64,000 bases of DNA, taken from the IMG/VR virus record IMGVR_UViG_3300031951_000003, positions 1 to 64,000 of that record, one strand, 5' to 3'. A model generated the notes under the pieces. It had not been told where the DNA came from, ran no database searches, and saw nothing but the letters and a program-made list of their open reading frames with translations. This document shows positions 5,456 through 61,639 of the stretch, in pieces; position 1 is the stretch's first letter; each line of letters begins with the position of its first letter. The DNA is from a virus. The position numbers were made by a program, and so were the translations under genes.

Positions 5456-6943
5456 TTAACATGGTTGCCATAGTCCTCCGACAACAAATCCATCACTATC
5501 TATTTGCCAATATCCTGTGAGAGAGTCGGTGCTGTTGGTATACCAATAATTATTCCCGTTGAAAGGCGTATTGAATGAACTGTCTGCAAAGAATCTCGTT
5601 GCACTATACCAATCATTCGATGGACTGTAAATTGTTTGACCCAACGTTTGTGGGTCTATACATATTGGTTGTGTTGTTTCCCCTGATGAAACTAAGAATG
5701 ATGTAATTTCTTGTTGAGCACCAATTGGGTCACCATTTTGAGCAATTAATTCTTGACCATCTTGAGTTATAATTAAAATCTCAAATACGGATGGAGTTGC
5801 TGTTGGTGAAGGAGTAAACGAAGGGGTTGGTGTATTAGTTTCTGTTGGAGTTGGTGTGTTAGTTTCTGTTGGAGTTGGTGTGTTAGTTTCTGTTGGAGTA
5901 GGAGTCGGAGATATCAAACATCCGTTAGGGTCCGAACTTGTGATTAGACCTGCTCCGCCTGTAACTCTATACCAAGCAACACCGTTGGAATAGTATCCGT
6001 CAGGTGCTGGTGTTGTAAGAGCCGAATCAGTATATAAAGTTTCCCCAATGTTAGGTCCAGGTCCATCTCCAGGTCCACTGTAGAAGTTAGTTGGTGATGA
6101 GTAAAAATTACCACACGATGTTAATGAGCTAGATAAATCATAACCTAATGAATATTCCCAATATGCTCTTGAAGCTGTAGGTGTTGTTGTCGGTGTTGCG
6201 GTTGGAGTTTCAGTTTGCGTAGGTGTTTGTGTTGGAGTCTCAGTATTTGTTGGGGTTGGAGTCTCTGTAGGCGTCTCGCTTGGTGTTACAGATGGTGTTG
6301 GTGTGTTAGTTTCAGTTGGAGTTTGAGTTGGTGTCTCACCAGGTGTTGCGGTAGGTGATTCTGTAGGTGTTTGTGATGGGGTTTCGGTTGGAGTTCCCGT
6401 CTGTGTTGGTGTAGGAGTTTCAGAAGTAGAAGGGGTCGGTGTAGGAGTTGTTGTTGGTGTCTCCGTTTGTGTTGGGGTCGGCGATTCTGTTGCAGTTGGT
6501 GTTTGACCAGGGCTTGCAGTTATACTTGGAGTTGGTGTTTGTGTCTGAGTTTCAGTTGGAGTTTGTGTTGGAGTCTCTGAAGTTGTTGGAGTCTGTGTTG
6601 TTGTTGGTGTTTCTGTAGGTGTAGAATTAGGGGTTCCTGTATTTGTTGGTGTAGGTGTAAACGTAGGTGTTACAGTAGGAGTAGGTGTAGGTGTAGGGGT
6701 AACGCATTCAAATGTAATAACAACTCCGTTGAACATTTCGGTTCTTGTCTGTGCAGAGGCATAAAGAGTTGCGGCTGAAAGGTAGGTCGAAGTCCCATAA
6801 TAGATATCGAATGGACCTAAGGCATTAGAATTCTGAGATAATCTTACAATGTAAGTGACACATCCCGTAACCGAGACCTGTTGCGTAACTACTGTATTAC
6901 AACCTTCAGCAGTATTGACACAAAAAATATTATAAAGGGACAT
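5456..6943 (-). CDS. Thr-Pro-rich phage surface/fibre protein
   Basis: This 495-residue protein has three parts. Residues 1-80 form a small cysteine-containing beta-rich domain with a PFDIYY...YLSA pattern. Residues ~80-260 are a mucin-like linker of (T/S)-P-T-(E/P) repeats, which is extended and probably a glycosylation target. After it come two related globular units, ~262-345 and ~405-495, each with a (F/Y)xDSxxxTP...Y..G..W pattern and separated by a second TPTPTETN linker. I infer a virion-surface appendage between the SprB-like adhesin and the collagen-like fibre. No enzyme motif is visible. The ATG at 6943 follows a TATTTATT box. Confidence 0.75.
5827..5898. repeat. 24-bp tandem repeat, three units
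   Basis: Units 5827-5850, 5851-5874 and 5875-5898 differ at one base and encode the 8-residue TPTPTETN-type linker in the Thr-Pro-rich protein. Confidence 0.85.
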
Positions 6944-6964: not shown

Positions 6965-7015
6965 CCACGATTATCTATTTGAATATCTCGAAACGAAAAA
7001 TTATTAAATACTTTA

Positions 7016-7342
7016 TCATGTACAAATAATATTGAATCCACATACAGCATTTTGAATGTCTATATTTACAACACAACTCTCGAGCTCAACTGTAATATTG
7101 AAAGTACAACCAAATGTACAATCTAGTATTTTTACTGACTCACATCCATTTGCATCAACCAAACGTAACATGATTTCAGGTGCGGTCTGAAATATTGTAG
7201 GAATAGTTGTATTGTAATAAACAGTTGGTGGAACTCCACTAATTGTACCAAGTAAAAACTGATTATTTCCGTATATGTCGGATATAAAAGCTTGTATTGG
7301 AAAAGTGCCCCCTGTGATTTCTGTTATTCTTACCTGAACCAT
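7016..7342 (-). CDS. Small beta-rich virion protein, unknown function
   Basis: The protein has 108 residues if translation starts at the ATG at 7342-7340. That ATG shares its A with the TAA of the upstream adhesin gene (TAATG), which suggests translational coupling. A longer reading from a TTG at 7354 is less likely. The sequence is beta-rich (ITGGTFPIQAFISDIYGNN, then LRLVDANGCESVKILDC) and has several cysteines in its C-terminal half. The VDANGC phrase matches the SprB-like repeats of the neighbouring protein, so it may be an accessory adhesin subunit. I do not recognise a family. Confidence 0.65.
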   Translation of the reverse strand: MVQVRITEITGGTFPIQAFISDIYGNNQFLLGTISGVPPTVYYNTTIPTIFQTAPEIMLRLVDANGCESVKILDCTFGCTFNITVELESCVVNIDIQNAVCGFNIICT

Positions 7343-9480
7343 TATGTTAAACAAATTATATCATAAACAATCGACAACTCCACAACAATTTCTTGACCAT
7401 TCAATGAATTGTTTGCCGGGTTAGTTGCAATTGTTATTTGGTTGTTTATTTGGTCTATTGTTACAGTCAAAATTCCTGGTATGGAAAGTAGTAGACTCTT
7501 TATAGTATCATACCATAAATTATCACCCGGCGGATTGTTCAGAGTCGTTGCTGTGAAGAAAGTGCTTGATGCACTCAACCCCGCTGGGTTGACATTGACT
7601 TTAGCTGTGAATATTGCAGAAATCAAATCACAGTTTGTATTGTCTTGCGTCAAATCAGCGTAACCCTCGTTTAACATTTGTAGTAAACCGAGTTTAGTTG
7701 GGGAATCTATGTTAAAGATTTCTTCTCCCATAACATAACACTGATAAGATGTATAGTTGGTGTCACAGGTAATTGTTGTTGAGCGTGAAAGTGAACATCC
7801 ATTTGCATCAACAATAGAAAGACTGTATGTTCCTCCTGTCAAATTGTAAACTTCAATTTGTTGAGGGTTAGATGGGACGTTATTTGACCAATTGAATTGG
7901 AATGGTGGTGTGCCCGAAGTGATGAATGCGGTAATTTGACCATCGTTTCCTGAGCCACAATTAATACTATATAAACTAAAATCTAAGTTGTCTCCTTTTG
8001 GGATGAAAATTGTTTGAGTTTGTTGACATCCCGTTGAGTCAGTAACAGTAACAACATGGTTTCCAAAAGTTAAGTTATTAAATGTTACCGCTGTTAAATT
8101 TGTATCAACAACATTCAATATTCCATCAACTGAATAATCCAATGGTAGAGTATATCCTGGTGATGTAGTAATTCTTACACTTCCGTTGTTTTGATTACAC
8201 GTTGTTCCTGTGATTTCTGTTGAAAGTGTGAATTTATTAATTGCCAATATTATCACTTCTTGACTAAATTGGCATCCTGTAGAATCCTCAACAAATACTG
8301 AGTAAGTGTCCGCAGATAAATTCTCAAAGGTTTGAATTTGTTGTTGTCCTACAATAATTTTTTGGTTTCCTCCGTCGCCAACCAAGGTGTAGGTAAAGGG
8401 ACCTTGTCCTCCTATAACTGTGACAGTTATCAATCCATCATTACTTGAACAATAAGAATTAGTTCCAACAACACTTACAGAACTCATCCCGTTTGGTGTT
8501 AGTAAAGTAGTCCCCGTGAATATTTGACACAGTCCAGCATCTGTGACTGAGAAATTGTAATCACCAGCAGATAATCCTGATATCGTAAAATCTTGAGCAT
8601 ATGATATGAGAACTTGGCCTGTTGACGCGGAGTAATAATATGGTTGACTTCCACCTGTTATTGTGAGAGTAATTGAGCCATCGCTTTGGAAACAACTTGG
8701 ATTGGTTTCTGTTGTGAAAAACGCACCCATTTGGTCGACGTTGACGACAGCAGCATCTTTTATGTTTACACAACCAAAACCATCTTTAACTTCAACCGAA
8801 TATAATCCTTCAGTCAATCCTGTTGCAGTTGCACCTGTCTGACCATTAGACCACAAATAAGTAAAAGGTCCTTGTCCCGTTAGTCCCGTGACCATTATCT
8901 TACCAATCGGGGTTCCTCCACAACTCGAATTAGGTATGGAATATAAACCGTAGTTGGTGAGAAGAGATTGTTCAACGATAAAACTTTGGCTAAAACCTGA
9001 GCATCCACCTAAATCACTAACGGCCAAGTAATATGTTCCGGCCGAAAGATTTTCAAAAATTACGGTTGGGTTGCTTGAAAGGAAAGTTTGAACAAGTGTT
9101 CCGTCACCTGAGAAGACAGAATAATTTGCAGAAGAATAAATCGTATTAGAGGAACCAGTAACAGAACCATTGTTTTCAGCACAAGTGGTGTTCTGAACAC
9201 CGAGAACACTACAACACACTCCACTCGAAATAGGTATGTTAACATTAATTTCTTGATTTGTTGGTAAAGTGCTATCATTCACAGTCATTAGGACGACTGA
9301 ACTAAATAATCCTGATTTGGTTACTGGCGCATTTTCAGCTAATGTAACCGTCGGATAATAAGGGTCAACAAATTGGACGGTATATGGTTCTATACCACCT
9401 GAGAAAGAGATTTGGAATGCACCGCTTCCGTTATTTTGACAATCCCCTGTTACTAATAATGTATAATCAAATAATGCCAT
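7342..9480 (-). CDS. SprB-repeat adhesin-like tail protein
   Basis: This 712-residue protein has about six tandem units between residues ~98 and ~570. Each follows the pattern C..(N/S)(D/N)G.I...(I/V)(T/S)GG..P(F/Y).Y...... followed by L(S/T).G.Y...V.D..GC. That is the signature of SprB-type repeats, which are known from the mobile surface adhesin of gliding flavobacteria. The N-terminal ~95 residues look like a related unit. The C-terminal ~140 residues (from about TNYTSYQCYVMGEEIFNID) form a different domain, perhaps for virion attachment. The role in host adsorption is inferred. It is followed by a TAATG-coupled small gene and starts 6 bases after the 992-residue gene. Confidence 0.75.
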   Translation of the reverse strand: MALFDYTLLVTGDCQNNGSGAFQISFSGGIEPYTVQFVDPYYPTVTLAENAPVTKSGLFSSVVLMTVNDSTLPTNQEINVNIPISSGVCCSVLGVQNTTCAENNGSVTGSSNTIYSSANYSVFSGDGTLVQTFLSSNPTVIFENLSAGTYYLAVSDLGGCSGFSQSFIVEQSLLTNYGLYSIPNSSCGGTPIGKIMVTGLTGQGPFTYLWSNGQTGATATGLTEGLYSVEVKDGFGCVNIKDAAVVNVDQMGAFFTTETNPSCFQSDGSITLTITGGSQPYYYSASTGQVLISYAQDFTISGLSAGDYNFSVTDAGLCQIFTGTTLLTPNGMSSVSVVGTNSYCSSNDGLITVTVIGGQGPFTYTLVGDGGNQKIIVGQQQIQTFENLSADTYSVFVEDSTGCQFSQEVIILAINKFTLSTEITGTTCNQNNGSVRITTSPGYTLPLDYSVDGILNVVDTNLTAVTFNNLTFGNHVVTVTDSTGCQQTQTIFIPKGDNLDFSLYSINCGSGNDGQITAFITSGTPPFQFNWSNNVPSNPQQIEVYNLTGGTYSLSIVDANGCSLSRSTTITCDTNYTSYQCYVMGEEIFNIDSPTKLGLLQMLNEGYADLTQDNTNCDLISAIFTAKVNVNPAGLSASSTFFTATTLNNPPGDNLWYDTIKSLLLSIPGILTVTIDQINNQITIATNPANNSLNGQEIVVELSIVYDIICLT

Positions 9481-9485
9481 TCAAT

Positions 9486-12464
9486 TTAACAATTTATGCT
9501 TATGTTAATACATACGTTTAGTTTGACTGTTTCATTCATGTTTCTTGGTGTGCATGTCGAATTAGTTATTGATAAATTATTTCCATTTAGGAAATATGTA
9601 AACCCATAATCGTAGACTGCTGGTAGATATTGAATCAAAGCATTTCTCCAATTTGAATTTGTTGGAACATCCGTGAATCCATACCCTGTGTAGAAAGGTT
9701 GTTGTATAATTTTTTGTCCCGCAATTTCCAAATCAACATACCAATTTGTTTCAACTGAACTTTGAACACAATCGTTTAAGGTTAATACTTGTGCTTCGAG
9801 CATTATGTTTAGTCTATTTGCTAAAATCGATTGGAAGTTTGATACATTTGTATCACCATTTAACCAAGGATATATGTTGAAGTCAACATATTCTGTTTGA
9901 CATGTGTAATCAAAAATGTTTGTTATTATAAAACAAGGCTCAACTGGCACAGGAATTATTTCACAACCTCTTTGTCTTCTATAAACGTATTTTTGTCTGT
10001 GTAGTATTGAGTTTTCGAGTCTTGAACCTGTATTCCATATTGTGGTTGCAGGTATCATTTGCTCTACTAACTTCATCCACCACGGACCCAATCCGTTGAT
10101 GTAGTCGATTAGTTTTTGATACGTATATTTGTTGTTTGGTATACCCACTGTTTGTTCTGATTGGATATACTTCCACCAAACCGATTGAAGAGTTGGATAT
10201 CCTCCTGTTTTACCATCAGTGATATATTGTCTGTTTCTAGTATTAATCATATTCTCCCAAAAAGTTTGGTAGAATTCGAAGAATGTTTTCTTTTTTGGTT
10301 CGGGTTTGATAAAAGTTGAGTCGACTCCACCTGGAACTGGATATCCAATTGTCAGACCTGATTCAGGAATCGGGTAGTCGTATTTTCTTGAAGAAACCCA
10401 AACGTCGTAAACAAGTCCTTGTGAAGCATTCAAAAACAAATCTATGTTTTTAACATTCAATACGAGTTTTTCATTGTCCGCATAATAATAAGCGTTGAAA
10501 TTAGCATCCCTTGAAACTCTTATCTTGTCATCCTCTTCAAGCCACGACTTATTATTGTCAACAACTTTTTTAAGTTTGAATCCCTCGGTCATATAAGGAA
10601 AATCTCTGAACCTATCGAGATATTTTTGACCATATGTAAATGGTTGTAGTTGAGTTTGAATATCGTAGTTCTGACCTGTATAGATTTGTCCTGTAATTTG
10701 AACCTCATCTGGACTTCTATGTTGTGGTGTGCTTTCATACCAACCAGCACCCAATTGGAAGAAATAAGATTCCGTATTTACGGGAGCCTTAGGAAATCCT
10801 TGAGCGTCTATTGGATAATCATCTAGATTTATCTGAACATCTTGATAGGTGTCAACAGTTGTGAAGGCTGTAAAGGTTTTTCCTTTTATTTTATATGTAG
10901 AACCTGGTAGATAAGCCGGTGTGTTTTGAACATAAGTTCCACCTGTTATGGCCGCATATTGTGTGTCGAACTGTTCCATGTTGATTTTTTGGTCAGCCAA
11001 ATAGATGTGCTCGTTGAATTCTATTAACGACTCGGGTGCACCAATCAATCTCATCATAAACTCAACACTTCGTCTCGTTCCTTTTGATTTGAAAAGGTAT
11101 GCTGAGTTGAGAATCAAATTCCTATAAAATGCGTAGTTGATTTCAGTTGGTGTAAGGGCTCTCGCATAACCTGGATATGAAGGTGTTTGTGTATTTCCAA
11201 AAATCGAATCTAAAAAGTCCGTATCAGTAATAGGTGAAAAATTTGAACTCCATCCCAAGGTTTGAGATAGGTTAACTAACAATTGAGATGGGATGTCATT
11301 ACCAACATTATAATTTACAGAGTTCATAAACGCTAAAGCGTCGATGAAGTTTTTGACTTGGTCAAAACTTCTTCCGTAAATTTGAAAAATCTTTTCGGCT
11401 TTCCTTCCTAATGTATCAAATTCTTTCAATGAATCTGAAACAAAAAATCTTGAAATTAAATTTGTTTTATATGAATCAAGATTTACCGCAATTGTTTCCA
11501 ATTGTGTCAAATACTCTTCGAATAAGAAAGAACGAATATCTAAATTCCATGGACCGTCCTTAGGCCATGTTACAGATTGGTTGTTTGTATAAAACTGACC
11601 CCCTTCCGTTTGCTGTGGTATTTGGAACACAGCTGTGTATTCAGGTCTAACCAATCTATTCATCAGAAACTTTTCAACCTCATCCAAACTCTCAGCAAAA
11701 ATTCTGTCAACTATGAAATCATTCGGTCTTATTTGATACTCTTGAATACTTGTTGTTGCGGTTTGTCCAAAAGGTGCACCGGAAACAGTGAATTTGATTA
11801 TACCACTTGATAATGTTTGAGAGGGTGTAAATGAAATAACTTTGAAAATATCATCATTGATTGATACGCAGTAATCTAAGTAAGTATTGTAGAGATTCCT
11901 ATAAGGTGACACACCAATTTCTCTCATGTTTAGGTTTGTGGCCGCACTTACAGAATAATCAACGTCAAATGGGTTTTTGATTCTATTAACACTTACTTCA
12001 AAACTTGTTTCATCATAAATCGGGTCATACGCGACATTCTGTGCTGTAAATCCAGTTAGGAAATCATCGTTCAAAAATTGAATATCTAAAGAAGCAGGAA
12101 ATACACTTATAATATGAGTAATTGATACTTGAAATCTTTTTGATAGTGAACCATATAATGTGAAATTTGTAACCTGAGACAAATCATAGTTCGGGTAAAC
12201 CCTGAATTGAGTCGCTTGAATTCTTCTACTCTCAGCAAGTGTATCAACATCAAGATAATCCAAATCTATAGGCTCCGAAAAAGCACCAACATTAAATCTA
12301 CGATTCACTTTCTCCACAATAGAAGTTGTGAATTCGAAGTTACCTTGCGTGAGACCGCCCCCTTCAACTGTCTGCAATCCTACAATATTGTCAGAGAAGG
12401 TAGCCGCCCCACTTCCTGGTCTTGGCGGATAGAAAAATTTAGTTGTTCTTCTTGATGTCGCCAT
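9486..12464 (-). CDS. Large baseplate/tail protein (gpI- or gp7-like)
   Basis: This 992-residue protein is similar in length to T4 gp7. The middle segment, residues ~445-492, reads YRNLILNSAYLFKSKGTRRS followed by VEFMMRLIGAPESL. It resembles the KGT-containing core of P2 gpI-type baseplate proteins that connect the wedge to fibres. The N-terminal half is beta-rich and the C-terminal third is Tyr/Trp-rich, with a cysteine-rich tail. The ATG at 12464 overlaps the preceding TAA (TAATG), so it is probably co-translated. Assignment to a particular wedge protein is uncertain; a structural role follows from position and composition. Confidence 0.6.
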   Translation of the reverse strand: MATSRRTTKFFYPPRPGSGAATFSDNIVGLQTVEGGGLTQGNFEFTTSIVEKVNRRFNVGAFSEPIDLDYLDVDTLAESRRIQATQFRVYPNYDLSQVTNFTLYGSLSKRFQVSITHIISVFPASLDIQFLNDDFLTGFTAQNVAYDPIYDETSFEVSVNRIKNPFDVDYSVSAATNLNMREIGVSPYRNLYNTYLDYCVSINDDIFKVISFTPSQTLSSGIIKFTVSGAPFGQTATTSIQEYQIRPNDFIVDRIFAESLDEVEKFLMNRLVRPEYTAVFQIPQQTEGGQFYTNNQSVTWPKDGPWNLDIRSFLFEEYLTQLETIAVNLDSYKTNLISRFFVSDSLKEFDTLGRKAEKIFQIYGRSFDQVKNFIDALAFMNSVNYNVGNDIPSQLLVNLSQTLGWSSNFSPITDTDFLDSIFGNTQTPSYPGYARALTPTEINYAFYRNLILNSAYLFKSKGTRRSVEFMMRLIGAPESLIEFNEHIYLADQKINMEQFDTQYAAITGGTYVQNTPAYLPGSTYKIKGKTFTAFTTVDTYQDVQINLDDYPIDAQGFPKAPVNTESYFFQLGAGWYESTPQHRSPDEVQITGQIYTGQNYDIQTQLQPFTYGQKYLDRFRDFPYMTEGFKLKKVVDNNKSWLEEDDKIRVSRDANFNAYYYADNEKLVLNVKNIDLFLNASQGLVYDVWVSSRKYDYPIPESGLTIGYPVPGGVDSTFIKPEPKKKTFFEFYQTFWENMINTRNRQYITDGKTGGYPTLQSVWWKYIQSEQTVGIPNNKYTYQKLIDYINGLGPWWMKLVEQMIPATTIWNTGSRLENSILHRQKYVYRRQRGCEIIPVPVEPCFIITNIFDYTCQTEYVDFNIYPWLNGDTNVSNFQSILANRLNIMLEAQVLTLNDCVQSSVETNWYVDLEIAGQKIIQQPFYTGYGFTDVPTNSNWRNALIQYLPAVYDYGFTYFLNGNNLSITNSTCTPRNMNETVKLNVCINISINC

Positions 12465-55255: not shown

Positions 55256-55948
55256 TTAATTATTTTTAGTCATTGAACCCACAGTTTTAAGTGCATTCCA
55301 ATGAGAGTCTGACTTGGATGAACTCGCCCCAATCACAATCCCTTGTCCTCTCCCGACTGAGTTTCCAACAAAAACATTTGAAGCAGGAACTCCGTTGTTC
55401 ACAGCATTTCTTACATTATTTTTCGTTTCACTTCCAGCAGCATATGGCTCAATGATGAACAAGTTATTTTTATTTTGACCCAAGACATTTGAAATCTCAT
55501 TAGATTTCCTGCATCCCGCACTGAAAAGATAAATCGGGATTCCTGGGTTTTTATTGATAAAATCTATAATTGTAGAGGATGGTGTGTTAAACCTAAAACC
55601 TTTAACATTCTTTTCAGTTCCAATCCCCTGTTTCAATAAACTTACTTGTGAATCTATATTTAAGTCACCAGACCTATTATCTAACCCCCCAACTAAAATT
55701 GCATCATACTCACCAGATGTTTTTTGTGATGAGGAACCTTTTCTCACAATTTTCAAACCAAACTCTTGTTCCATCGCACCTCTTGTCAAAGGTCCTAACT
55801 TACCATCCACTCCATCTTTGTTTGGACCATACTTACCCAAATCATACCCCTTTTTTATCAGATACTTTTGTATGATTTCAACATTTGGGTCATAGGATAT
55901 TTGTTCTAATAAAAAACCCAATTGTGATTCTTTTAAAATAAATCTCAT
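55256..55948 (-). CDS. Peptidoglycan-binding-domain protein with unknown C-terminal domain
   Basis: The protein has 230 residues. Residues ~20-68 form a PG_binding_1-like module: IIQKYLIKKGYDLGKYGPNK then DGVDGKLGPLTRGAMEQEFG. The C-terminal ~150 residues are alpha/beta, with YDAILVGGLDNRSGD, IPIYLFSAGC, FIIEPYAAGSET, SNVFVGNSVGRGQGIVIG and SHWNAL. A Ser/Asp/His hydrolase site is conceivable but not established. There is no signal peptide. It starts 2 bases after the neck-like gene and ends 1 base before the gp15-like gene. Possible roles are a cell-wall hydrolase or a virion-associated wall binder. Confidence 0.65.
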   Translation of the reverse strand: MRFILKESQLGFLLEQISYDPNVEIIQKYLIKKGYDLGKYGPNKDGVDGKLGPLTRGAMEQEFGLKIVRKGSSSQKTSGEYDAILVGGLDNRSGDLNIDSQVSLLKQGIGTEKNVKGFRFNTPSSTIIDFINKNPGIPIYLFSAGCRKSNEISNVLGQNKNNLFIIEPYAAGSETKNNVRNAVNNGVPASNVFVGNSVGRGQGIVIGASSSKSDSHWNALKTVGSMTKNN

Positions 55949-56524: not shown

Positions 56525-56920
56525 ATGGAAATTCAAAGAAATACAAAACTACAAGTAAGAAAAAGTTCAATTCACGGTTGGGGGGTTTTCGCATGTGAAG
56601 ACATAAACGAGGGTGAGGTTATTGAAGAGTGTCCGATTCTTAGATTACCTGTTCAAAGAGGAGAAACAAACTACACCTTAATTGACTATACATTTGTATT
56701 TCCAAAAGGAGAGAATTGGCAAAACCACGTTATTGCTCTTGGATATGGTTCACTATATAACCATTCCGAAAACTATAACGCAACATGGGAAGACGATTTG
56801 GACAAAGACATTTTAAGATTTAAAGCAACAAAACCAATTTCGAAAGATGAGGAAGTCACAACTTATTATGGTGATGAAAGTTATTGGTCTGACGGTAGAA
56901 GTCACATTGAAGTAAAATGA
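56525..56920 (+). CDS. SET-domain protein (putative lysine methyltransferase)
   Basis: This 131-residue protein is essentially a bare SET domain. It has the SAM-binding opening IHGWGVFACEDINEGEVI (residues 16-33), the core LGYGSLYNHSENYNA with the NHS motif (79-81), the I.KDEEVTTYYGD element (105-116) and the closing DESYW. There are no pre-SET or post-SET cysteine clusters. SET enzymes transfer methyl groups from SAM to protein lysines; the target here is unknown. Its TGA overlaps the ATG of the SNF2 gene by 4 bases (ATGA), implying coupled synthesis. Confidence 0.85.
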   Translation: MEIQRNTKLQVRKSSIHGWGVFACEDINEGEVIEECPILRLPVQRGETNYTLIDYTFVFPKGENWQNHVIALGYGSLYNHSENYNATWEDDLDKDILRFKATKPISKDEEVTTYYGDESYWSDGRSHIEVK

Positions 56921-58895: not shown

Positions 58896-58925
58896 AGTCA
58901 ATCAAACCTTAAAACAATTCTGAGT

Positions 58926-58933
58926 TATTTATA
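58926..58933 (+). promoter_or_regulatory. TATTTATA box before the SOD-fusion gene
   Basis: An exact match 21 bases before the ATG at 58955. Confidence 0.5.
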
Positions 58934-58954
58934 TAAAACGAATAACTCGCCAAT

Positions 58955-60493
58955 ATGAAAAAAATAGAAGAAAGAATTCAACAAATTGAAAAACAAATTA
59001 CCGAAAACCATATCGAAACAGAAAAACAATTGTTGATTACAGAAATGAAAAAAATTGGAATAGAAAAACTACCCTATTCTTATTCAGCCCTCAAAGGATT
59101 CATCGACGCAGAAACGATGAATTTCCACTACAACAAACACTATAAGGGATATGTAGATAAATTAAATGCCGCCCTGTCAAAGAAAAAACATGGAGATTTA
59201 GACTTAGAAAAAATTGTCAAAAACATTAGTCGATACGACCAAGTAGTAAGGAACAACGCTGGAGGAGCATTCAATCACGCACTTTTTTGGAATATGTTGT
59301 CTCCAACACCAAAAAAATTAACAGGGGAATTGTATAAAAAAATTACCAAAGAATACGGTAGTTTCAATCTATTCAAAAAGAAATTTGAAACTGTTGCAAA
59401 GGATAGATTTGGCTCAGGTTGGGTATGGTTAATTTTAACCTCAAAAAATACTTTGAAAATAATGTCGACACCAAATCAAGACAATCCACTTATGAATGTT
59501 ATCGAAGGTGGAGGTTTCCCTCTATTAGGTTTGGACCTTTGGGAACACGCCTACTATTTGAAATACAGAAATAAGAGAGACGAATACATTTCAAATTTTT
59601 GGAAGGTGGTCAATTGGGATTTTGTTCAGAAACTTTATGAAATGAAAGTTGAAACAAAACTACTAGAGTCGAACAAATTTCAAGGAATAATTACTGAATC
59701 AAAAGAACCACAATTCTGTAATCCAAAAGAAGTATTGTTCTATAGAGACTTGATTAATAATTACGCAATCAAAAAAAGATATCAGGAGGGAGTATCCTAC
59801 GTTCTAAAAAAAGTATTTTCACATTTTTGGGTTGAGGGTAATACTGAAGAGATGTCAGGATTTTATGGTGTAGAATCACCCGAGGGTAGGTCTATACTCA
59901 ATAACCTTAATACAAATTTCAATACATTTTGTTTATTGGTAAAAGCAGTAAACAAACAGATTGAATTAATTGGAAGGTCAGAAAAGAAGTTTGATTTTTC
60001 AAAAAAAGAAAAAAGAACTCTAAAGGAAACAACTAGATTTATTTCAGCATTGGACCACTTCAGAAACGAAATCTTTACAGAGAATAACGAAGACTTTATC
60101 AATATAATCAAAGTCCTTAAAAAACTTTGGGATAGGGGTCAAAAGTCTGAAGACAACGCAATTAAAAAAATAGAAGACTATTTTGATGGTAATGCTAAAA
60201 TTGAAAAGATTGGTTCACATGGTGGAAAACAAGACGCCTTCAAAGGTATTGATGTAAATGTGATTTTAGATGGAAAAAAGTTTTCTGCACAGGTTAAACC
60301 ATTCTCTAATGTTTCAATAATCGAGGACAGAGTTAAACTTTTGGATACAGGAAATGTTAAGCATTACGAAGTCGATTGGTATATTTTTATTAATCCTAAA
60401 ACAAATAAGATACTTATATTCAAAAACGACCCTATAAGTGATAAAAACCAATATGTCTTCAACGTTAGTTCACTACTACACGAAATAGAATAA
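58955..60493 (+). CDS. Fe/Mn superoxide dismutase fused to a PD-(D/E)XK nuclease-like domain
   Basis: The protein has 512 residues. Residues 1-36 are a charged helix. Residues ~37-230 match Fe/Mn SOD throughout: opening LPYSYSALKGFIDAETMNFH, metal ligands His58 (FHYNKHYKGYV), His108 (AFNHALFWN), Asp194 and His198 (LDLWEHAYYLKYRNKRDEYI), and the RFGSGWVWLI core. All four ligands are present, so dismutase activity is plausible. Residues ~255-400 are helical. Residues ~400-512 carry GIDVNVILDGKKFSAQVKPF with Asp433 and Gln446-x-Lys448, the D...(E/Q)xK pattern of PD-(D/E)XK nucleases. No signal peptide is seen. The nuclease activity is inferred; the fusion is in one uninterrupted frame. Confidence 0.88.
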   Translation: MKKIEERIQQIEKQITENHIETEKQLLITEMKKIGIEKLPYSYSALKGFIDAETMNFHYNKHYKGYVDKLNAALSKKKHGDLDLEKIVKNISRYDQVVRNNAGGAFNHALFWNMLSPTPKKLTGELYKKITKEYGSFNLFKKKFETVAKDRFGSGWVWLILTSKNTLKIMSTPNQDNPLMNVIEGGGFPLLGLDLWEHAYYLKYRNKRDEYISNFWKVVNWDFVQKLYEMKVETKLLESNKFQGIITESKEPQFCNPKEVLFYRDLINNYAIKKRYQEGVSYVLKKVFSHFWVEGNTEEMSGFYGVESPEGRSILNNLNTNFNTFCLLVKAVNKQIELIGRSEKKFDFSKKEKRTLKETTRFISALDHFRNEIFTENNEDFINIIKVLKKLWDRGQKSEDNAIKKIEDYFDGNAKIEKIGSHGGKQDAFKGIDVNVILDGKKFSAQVKPFSNVSIIEDRVKLLDTGNVKHYEVDWYIFINPKTNKILIFKNDPISDKNQYVFNVSSLLHEIE

Positions 60494-60499
60494 TAAAGA

Positions 60500-60507
60500 T
60501 ATTTATT
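60500..60507 (+). promoter_or_regulatory. TATTTATT box before the gp13-like gene
   Basis: It ends 4 bases before the ATG at 60512, the same short spacing as the boxes at 5422 and 24575. Confidence 0.4.
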
Positions 60508-60511
60508 TGAT

Positions 60512-61639
60512 ATGGCAGCACTACCAGAACCAGAAAGAAGTAAAATTTATACAAGAGTCAAACACTTGTTGGGAGCACCCTTAAGAAGTGTAGAATTAGA
60601 AGACGAAATGATGGACTCGCTAATGGAATTATCTATTGGTGATTATGAAGAATATATTCTACAATGGCTAATCGATTCACAATGGGTTAACTTAGTAAAC
60701 CTCAATATGAATGAAAAGTCTGTTGCCAGAGCTTTGGTTACAAGGACAATGGACTTCGAACAACAATTTGCATATTCGTATTCTAAGATTGTTGGACTTC
60801 AGACCGTAGGACCATGGGTCTTGAAGAAAGATTATTTCATAATTGAAAAGAATGTTCAGACATACGAAATACCAGCCAACAGAGAAGTCAATGAACTTCT
60901 TTGGTTTAGTAATCAGGCTTGGACAGCATTCGGACTTGGAGGTCTTGGTGGATTTGGATTCGGTGGTATAGGTTTGGGTGCCAATGAAGCAGGATACGCT
61001 CAGATGGGATACCAAGGTTCTTATTTTATGATGTCTGGTTTTGATTACCTCATCAGAATGCAAGAAGCAAATATCTTGAATAGAATTCTCGGTGGTTCTA
61101 TGACATATAGGATTACCGCATTACCTGATGGTAAAAAGTTGATACACTTGATGAATACCCCTGGTGGTAAATTTAACTGGGCTAATTTCAACATGTATGC
61201 TGGTAAAGCGGTTTGGTATTGGTATTATGATGTAACACCAGACAGTAGAGCTGATTGTCTTAAAAACAATCCTGACATTATCAAACTACCGACTGACGTT
61301 CCTCTTGAATCCTTGAGTTGGGAAGATATCAATGTTCCTGGACAACAATGGATAAGAAGATGGTTTACAGCATATTGTAAAGAAACCTTAGCAAGAGTGA
61401 GAGGTAAATACAGTGGGAATCTTAAGACACCTGATTCTGAAATTACAATGGATTACACCAGTCTTTTAACTGAAGCCAAGGATGAAAAATCTAAACTGAT
61501 GGAAGAATTGACGGGCGCTGAAGGATGGCTTACAAGACTAAGACCTGAAAAGGTTATGGAAAGAGAAGCACAAATTGCTGAAAATTTAAATAAACAAATG
61601 AAATTCAGAGCAATGCCTCGTCAAATCTACGTAATCTAA
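60512..61639 (+). CDS. gp13: Neck protein, T4 gp13-like
   Basis: This 375-residue protein opens IYTRVKHLLGAPLRSVELED, the LGAP..(V/I)EL element near the start of gp13-type neck proteins. The C-terminal third has INVPGQQWIRRWFTAYCKET, a KYSGNLKTPDSEITMDYTSL segment, and LLTEAKDEKSKLMEELTG, like the final helices and linker of gp13. A Gly-rich loop (GGLGGFGFGGIGLGANEAGY) lies in the middle. It would seal filled heads and form the head-tail joint. It is separated from the gp14-like gene by the 4-kb plus-strand insert. Confidence 0.72.
   Translation: MAALPEPERSKIYTRVKHLLGAPLRSVELEDEMMDSLMELSIGDYEEYILQWLIDSQWVNLVNLNMNEKSVARALVTRTMDFEQQFAYSYSKIVGLQTVGPWVLKKDYFIIEKNVQTYEIPANREVNELLWFSNQAWTAFGLGGLGGFGFGGIGLGANEAGYAQMGYQGSYFMMSGFDYLIRMQEANILNRILGGSMTYRITALPDGKKLIHLMNTPGGKFNWANFNMYAGKAVWYWYYDVTPDSRADCLKNNPDIIKLPTDVPLESLSWEDINVPGQQWIRRWFTAYCKETLARVRGKYSGNLKTPDSEITMDYTSLLTEAKDEKSKLMEELTGAEGWLTRLRPEKVMEREAQIAENLNKQMKFRAMPRQIYVI

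Follow-up and report, generated by a model that had tools for sequence, protein, structure and literature searches.

An apparently intact superoxide dismutase (SOD) of the Fe/Mn family and a predicted nuclease are joined in a single protein of 512 amino acids, encoded at 58955-60493 (+) of the window, by which we mean the whole stretch of 64,000 nucleotides of a 321-kb phage genome that was analysed. The fusion is conserved across a large family of giant phages from fresh water, and both halves are under strong purifying selection. We think that the protein could be made late as a precursor, enter the phage head and be cut there into SOD and nuclease, which would probably leave with the DNA at ejection. 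Packaging, cleavage and ejection are steps that we infer from the genes, and we hold this proposal with about even confidence.

Conservation of the fusion and properties of the SOD half

The reading frame is unbroken in the window. A search for the same architecture in other phages, which the sequence-only reading had recommended, covered 220 stretches from IMG/VR viral contigs of up to 326 kb, many of them overlapping, and gave the one-frame fusion in 218 of them, representing 72 distinct proteins. The two exceptions are a contig with the C-terminal part alone (L157) and a frameshifted copy (L198), the latter being the only split of the fusion found among the relatives. The earlier description of a complete Fe/Mn SOD, with His58, His108, Asp194 and His198 as ligands, continuing in one frame into further residues is thus borne out, and the fear that the SOD might be split or differently partnered in its relatives did not materialize. 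In moderately divergent pairs, the SOD has a dN/dS of 0.03, while the helical part and the nuclease core of the C-terminal module have 0.04 and 0.06; values are higher in the N-terminal 30 residues (0.13) and in the linker (0.10). Chance readthrough or an assembly artefact is ruled out by the 72 distinct intact fusions together with this strong purifying selection. No second copy of the gene was found in the 321-kb genome.

The SOD domain spans residues about 31-233 (59045..59653, +) and is matched by Pfam families PF00081 and PF02777 (Sod_Fe_N, 1e-22, residues 36-116; Sod_Fe_C, 1.4e-39, residues 123-226), its best PDB relatives being Mn or Mn/Fe SODs with E-values down to 1.4e-60. Besides the four metal ligands H58, H108, D194 and H198, which are invariant in the 72 distinct relatives, the second-sphere and dimer-interface residues H62, Y66, W158, Q175, E197 and Y201 are present in all 72, including the second-sphere Gln (Q175), the gateway Tyr (Y66) and the Glu/Tyr pair of the dimer interface (E197/Y201). 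The Gln found at 175 and the Gly found at 103-104 are typical of Mn-type enzymes within the Fe/Mn SOD family. Judged by its residues, the SOD half is apparently a complete and intact Mn-type enzyme. The full-length AlphaFold model, which was based on a shallow alignment and has pLDDT below 50 in the SOD half, is uninformative for this half, and therefore we claim no domain arrangement. No catalase, which could be a partner for the SOD, was found in the phage genome.

The closest cellular relatives belong nearly all to Bacteroidota (46-56% identity). These cytoplasmic or exported enzymes share the metal ligands, the Mn-type Gln, the gateway Tyr and the dimer-bridging Glu/Tyr with the phage protein, but those examined have neither the N-terminal extension of 30 residues nor the C-terminal addition of about 280. 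Since the cytoplasmic Bacteroidota SODs start 7-8 residues before LPY, like M31, and end about 3 residues past position 230, residues 1-30 and the part past about 233 are additions. Fe/Mn SODs of phages are already known as separate genes. Those of Vibrio phage 2.275.O, the Pseudomonas phage MIJ3/PA5oct group and gut phage MT835482 also belong to large phages, but they are short genes with about 27-28% identity, other neighbours and no nuclease half. On a gut phage contig (L085, 3980-4639) a divergent stand-alone SOD lies between baseplate-like genes and a helicase, that is, near structural genes.

A predicted nuclease in the C-terminal half

About 265-280 residues are joined to the SOD at its C-terminal side. 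They comprise a helical part, residues 249-395 (59699..60139, +), in which EMSGFYG and LNNLNTNFN are conserved, and a predicted PD-(D/E)XK-like nuclease core, residues 396-512 (60140..60490, +), with E399, HGxKxD427AxxGxD433 and Q446xK448. The helical part is defined by alignment and model, and the core by the motif, the model and structural matches. Residues E399, D427, D433, Q446 and K448 are invariant in all 72 distinct relatives.

Sequence searches recognize little of this half. Pfam gave no match above the cut-off past residue 230, a hint of Pox_polyA_pol_N (E 0.17) being noise; NCBIfam, PADLOC and PDB sequences gave none either, and PHROGs only phrog_34249 at E 0.01. No C-terminal relative was found in GTDB genomes, and a bacterial source was rejected on these same searches. 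Scans of the phage genome with the known resolvase families PF01870, PF05866, PF02075 and PF02945 were empty, so the C-terminal half matches none of the four.

Structure prediction is more informative. An AlphaFold model of the C-terminal 273 residues, built on 13 aligned sequences, reached pLDDT 81, with a poorly predicted loop before D433. It begins with a helical region and a long helix; a strand comes next, then a second one that opens with D433 and a third that contains Q446 and K448, followed by more strands. E399, D433, Q446 and K448 are thereby placed before and on predicted strands as a D-x12-QxK motif with a helix Glu. The top folds in a Foldseek search of the PDB were the SPARDA effector nuclease, I-Ssp6803I, RecU and phage Hjc-type resolvases, all at weak scores (best E 0.03, TM-score on the query 0.2-0.3). 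The C-terminal half has the order of motifs of these nucleases and, as far as such weak scores indicate, resembles them in its predicted fold, whereas it has no detectable sequence similarity to them and its helical N-terminal region is special to the family. The assignment as a predicted PD-(D/E)XK nuclease is thus supported by the motif and, more tentatively, by the model. The D...QxK signature noted before (Asp433, Gln446, Lys448) proved invariant, and the search ranked PD-(D/E)XK folds first, not an unrelated fold.

The module also occurs without the SOD. A stand-alone homolog of 290 aa (P0002 on L156) in the 735-kb phage LR756501 aligns over 225 columns (hhalign 96.8, E 2.6e-10) and keeps E399, D427, D433, Q446 and K448 at about 25% identity, and the copy on L157 is 66% identical to that of LR756501. 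Neither carries a SOD or an N-terminal tag of the LITE type described below. Foldseek against viral models also matched a marine phage protein of 1113 aa (A0A8D9CCA0) over the whole C-terminal module. The stand-alone homologs indicate that this module is an independent phage family of predicted nucleases, which was joined to SOD in one phage clade. As side observations, a SET-domain protein (L156 3951-4388) directly adjoins the stand-alone homolog of the 735-kb phage, and a small SET-domain protein is encoded near the SOD-nuclease gene (window 56525-56920). On L157, a contig akin to the 735-kb megaphage, many small proteins that are otherwise unrelated contain the peptide DPYGEExW (e.g., 2-571, 1719-2507, 5852-6430, 7002-7358, 9290-9616 and 9748-10047).

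The sequence-only reading knew of no characterised protein with this architecture, but it is not unseen. A protein of an uncultured Caudovirales phage, A0A6J5L953 (501 aa), annotated only as superoxide dismutase, matches the whole C-terminal half in structure (E 2.8e-15) at 30% identity and, in view of this match and of its name, it most likely has the same SOD-nuclease architecture in a more divergent form. Databases therefore most likely contain the fused form already, named superoxide dismutase. In the literature searched, no paper was found on a phage SOD-nuclease, on a virion-packaged phage SOD or on the second half of the fusion, the matches being incidental, so that the architecture is apparently undescribed in the papers searched.

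Late-type boxes, candidate cleavage sites and N-terminal tags

The gene order SNF2 helicase, SOD-nuclease, neck is constant in all relatives whose contig extends far enough; the genome of the window has one additional ORF of 70 aa between the SNF2-type helicase and the neck protein. The neck or head-tail adaptor gene (60512..61639, +; phrog_211 'head-tail adaptor Ad2', E 1.1e-9) lies directly downstream, has its own box at 60500, and adjoins in all relatives where the contig includes it, with a gap of 15-36 nt in 217 of 218 stretches. A TATTTAT box (58926..58932, +) is located 22 nt before the ATG of the SOD-nuclease gene, inside the inverted repeat GAGTTATT...AATAACTC (58922-58948). Both the neck neighbour and the late-type box of the sequence-only reading are therefore real. 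Across the genome, 107 of 379 ORFs have TATTTAT in the 60 nt before them, as against 6.3 expected from random windows and 32 when these upstream windows are read on the other strand, and in the window it also precedes genes for sheath and tube and genes of the baseplate region. From this enrichment and these positions, TATTTAT is very likely a late promoter and the SOD-nuclease gene is very likely late.

The phage is T4-like and encodes a prohead protease of the gp21 type (G000 107417-108133, -; PF03420, E 1.5e-22) and a capsid protein of the gp23 type (PF07068, E 4.6e-62). In T4, gp21 cleaves after L/I-x-E and takes off N-terminal propeptides and capsid-targeting sequences, and the N-terminal propeptides of the internal proteins act as such targeting sequences (PMC9026906). 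The sequence LINE60|A of the phage capsid protein, eleven residues ahead of where the alignment with mature T4 gp23 begins, is a putative site placed by its position near, not within, that alignment.

In the SOD-nuclease, the non-globular segments have four conserved glutamates, E17, E30, E238 and E248, that follow I/L by two positions, the residue in the middle being variable. The N-terminal extension, residues 1-30 (58955..59044, +), ends in LITE|M and is absent from cytoplasmic Bacteroidota SODs; we propose that it is a capsid-targeting propeptide. Its [IL]xE at residues 28-30 is found in 72 of 72 relatives with a variable middle residue, and the putative cut E30|M31 coincides with the start of the cytoplasmic Bacteroidota SODs. 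The linker, residues 234-248 (59654..59698, +), holds two further [LI]xE sites whose glutamates are present in 72 (E238) and 69 (E248) of the 72 relatives, again behind I/L and a variable middle residue. The candidate sites are thus LITE|M31 at the ancestral SOD start and LxE|S239 and [IL]xE|S249 at the junction. Late box, neck neighbour and protease-type sites at both domain boundaries lend indirect support to the earlier suggestion of a virion enzyme, whereas a redox- or metal-gated nuclease has found no specific support, and a permanent coupling is made less plausible by the likely cleavage sites in the linker.

The N-terminal site appears to be part of a wider pattern. Of the 379 ORFs, 35 have the motif [ILVF][ILVT][TNSKQ]E[ASQMG] among their first 40 residues, as against 5.7 after shuffling (36 matches; shuffled mean 5.8, maximum 15), and past position 60 there are no more than 17 matches in 76,029 residues (2.2e-4 per residue); since the motif was chosen after the sites had been seen, and L/I-x-E is short, these statistics show a tag in the genome and are no proof of cleavage of the SOD-nuclease. 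Late boxes precede 21 of the 35 tagged ORFs and 86 of the 344 others (Fisher p 4e-5). At least ten small ORFs of the genome outside the window begin almost identically with MSKIIRLTESDLIRLVKRVIKEQ and continue with unrelated sequences (e.g., G000:C1 199373-199729, 202589-202996, 214551-217198 and 186891-187835, all -, and 100272-100742, +). This N-terminal peptide looks like a shared head-targeting tag. A second, shorter type, MKYIITESQ..., is found at G000:C1 196551-197003, 206721-208368 and 212657-213307 and, as MRFILKESQLGFLLEQ, in the ORF at 55256-55948 of the window, which has a weak peptidoglycan-binding match. A third repeated N-terminus, MNLNENISRVKELMG, begins five ORFs with late boxes (e.g., G000:C1 205652-206677, 208406-210470 and 223770-225107).

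Proposed head loading, its rivals and what it would mean

We favour a head-loaded precursor because of the gp21- and gp23-type proteins, the conserved L/I-x-E sites, the late box, the genome-wide tag, the constant gene order up to the neck gene and the strong selection on both halves. The N-terminal peptide would direct the precursor into the T4-like prohead, where the gp21-type protease would cut after E30, so that the SOD would begin at its ancestral N-terminus M31. Cuts after E238, E248 or both would release the predicted nuclease from the SOD. Both products would remain in the mature head and probably leave it with the DNA on ejection; in the newly infected cell the SOD could remove superoxide, and the nuclease, if catalytically active, might act on host or other DNA. 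A precedent exists in the Cu/Zn SOD of PBCV-1 (A245R), which is expressed late and packaged in the virion, and infected cells contain less superoxide than with virus lacking the SOD (PMC7019647). That enzyme belongs to an unrelated family, to a eukaryotic virus and to no fusion, and packaging is only proposed for the phage protein. The proposed propeptide ending in L/I-x-E, the gp21 protease and the late-type expression signal are shared with the T4 internal head proteins (IPI-III, Alt), whereas the additional candidate sites between two enzymes and a putative cargo of SOD and nuclease are particular to the present protein. Against the route, conserved LxE/IxE inside the SOD itself (VIE184, LWE197) has other causes, 3 of the 72 relatives have another residue in place of E248 (none in place of E238), the stand-alone megaphage homologs are untagged, and other phage SODs are located among non-structural genes. 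Its main difficulty is that an active DNA endonuclease beside the packaged genome would need restraint.

The main rival is a late cytoplasmic enzyme of two domains, neither cleaved nor packaged, whose C-terminal part would be a Holliday-junction-type or other structure-specific nuclease for packaging or recombination, while the SOD would provide the needed dimer and protect DNA and metal centres late in infection. Fe/Mn SODs are dimers or tetramers, and D433-x12-Q446-x-K448 with a helix Glu fits the layout of Holliday-junction resolvases. RecU and phage Hjc-type resolvases are among the Foldseek neighbours, the gene has a late-type box and adjoins the neck gene, and neither Endonuclease VII nor RuvC, RusA or a member of the Hjc family was found in the genome. 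However, the structural matches are as weak as stated and unspecific to resolvases, missing known families do not demonstrate a need, and this reading would account neither for the extension whose LITE end lies right before the SOD nor for the linker with its conserved [LI]xE sites. We regard this rival as rather unlikely.

We think it quite improbable that the C-terminal half binds nucleic acid without cutting it, as a PD-(D/E)XK-like fold that tethers the SOD to a packaged or replicating genome for protection. The weak Foldseek E-values and QxK in place of the common ExK would agree with such a binder, but QxK is an accepted active-site variant, for example in Mrr-type nucleases, and the invariance of E399, D433, Q446 and K448 in 72 relatives, maintained even at about 25% identity, is what catalysis predicts. 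Very improbable, in our opinion, is a component of the neck or portal that is neither internal nor ejected, with activities used at the head-tail junction or vestigial. The Ad2-type neck gene is always adjacent, 15-36 nt away in 217 of 218 stretches, but adjacency is no proof of contact and that gene has its own box. In the SOD and in the nuclease half alike, the catalytic residues are invariant and under strong selection, which makes vestigial activity unlikely. Moreover, the T4 neck proteins gp13 and gp14 assemble once packaging is done and outside the core of the prohead (PMC9026906), so a neck role would leave the LITE-type sites unexplained.

Returning to the head-loaded precursor, we tentatively put forward a more far-reaching version, which is possible but falls short of being probable: a phage polyprotein in which SOD and nuclease are packed together as one tagged precursor, which the prohead protease divides before both are injected. 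They would belong to a large tagged 'ejectome', comprising several dozen proteins, of jumbo phages that live in fresh water and probably infect Bacteroidota, and the cell would receive redox protection and an attack on DNA along with the genome. The C-terminal family is a new predicted nuclease that is shared with megaphages. If head loading is true, this would be, as far as we have searched, the first bacteriophage found to carry its own antioxidant enzyme in the particle, with a precursor of two enzymes as cargo that is parted by head maturation. If the genome-wide tag is true as well, the virion-internal proteins of uncultured T4-like jumbo phages would become predictable from sequence alone.
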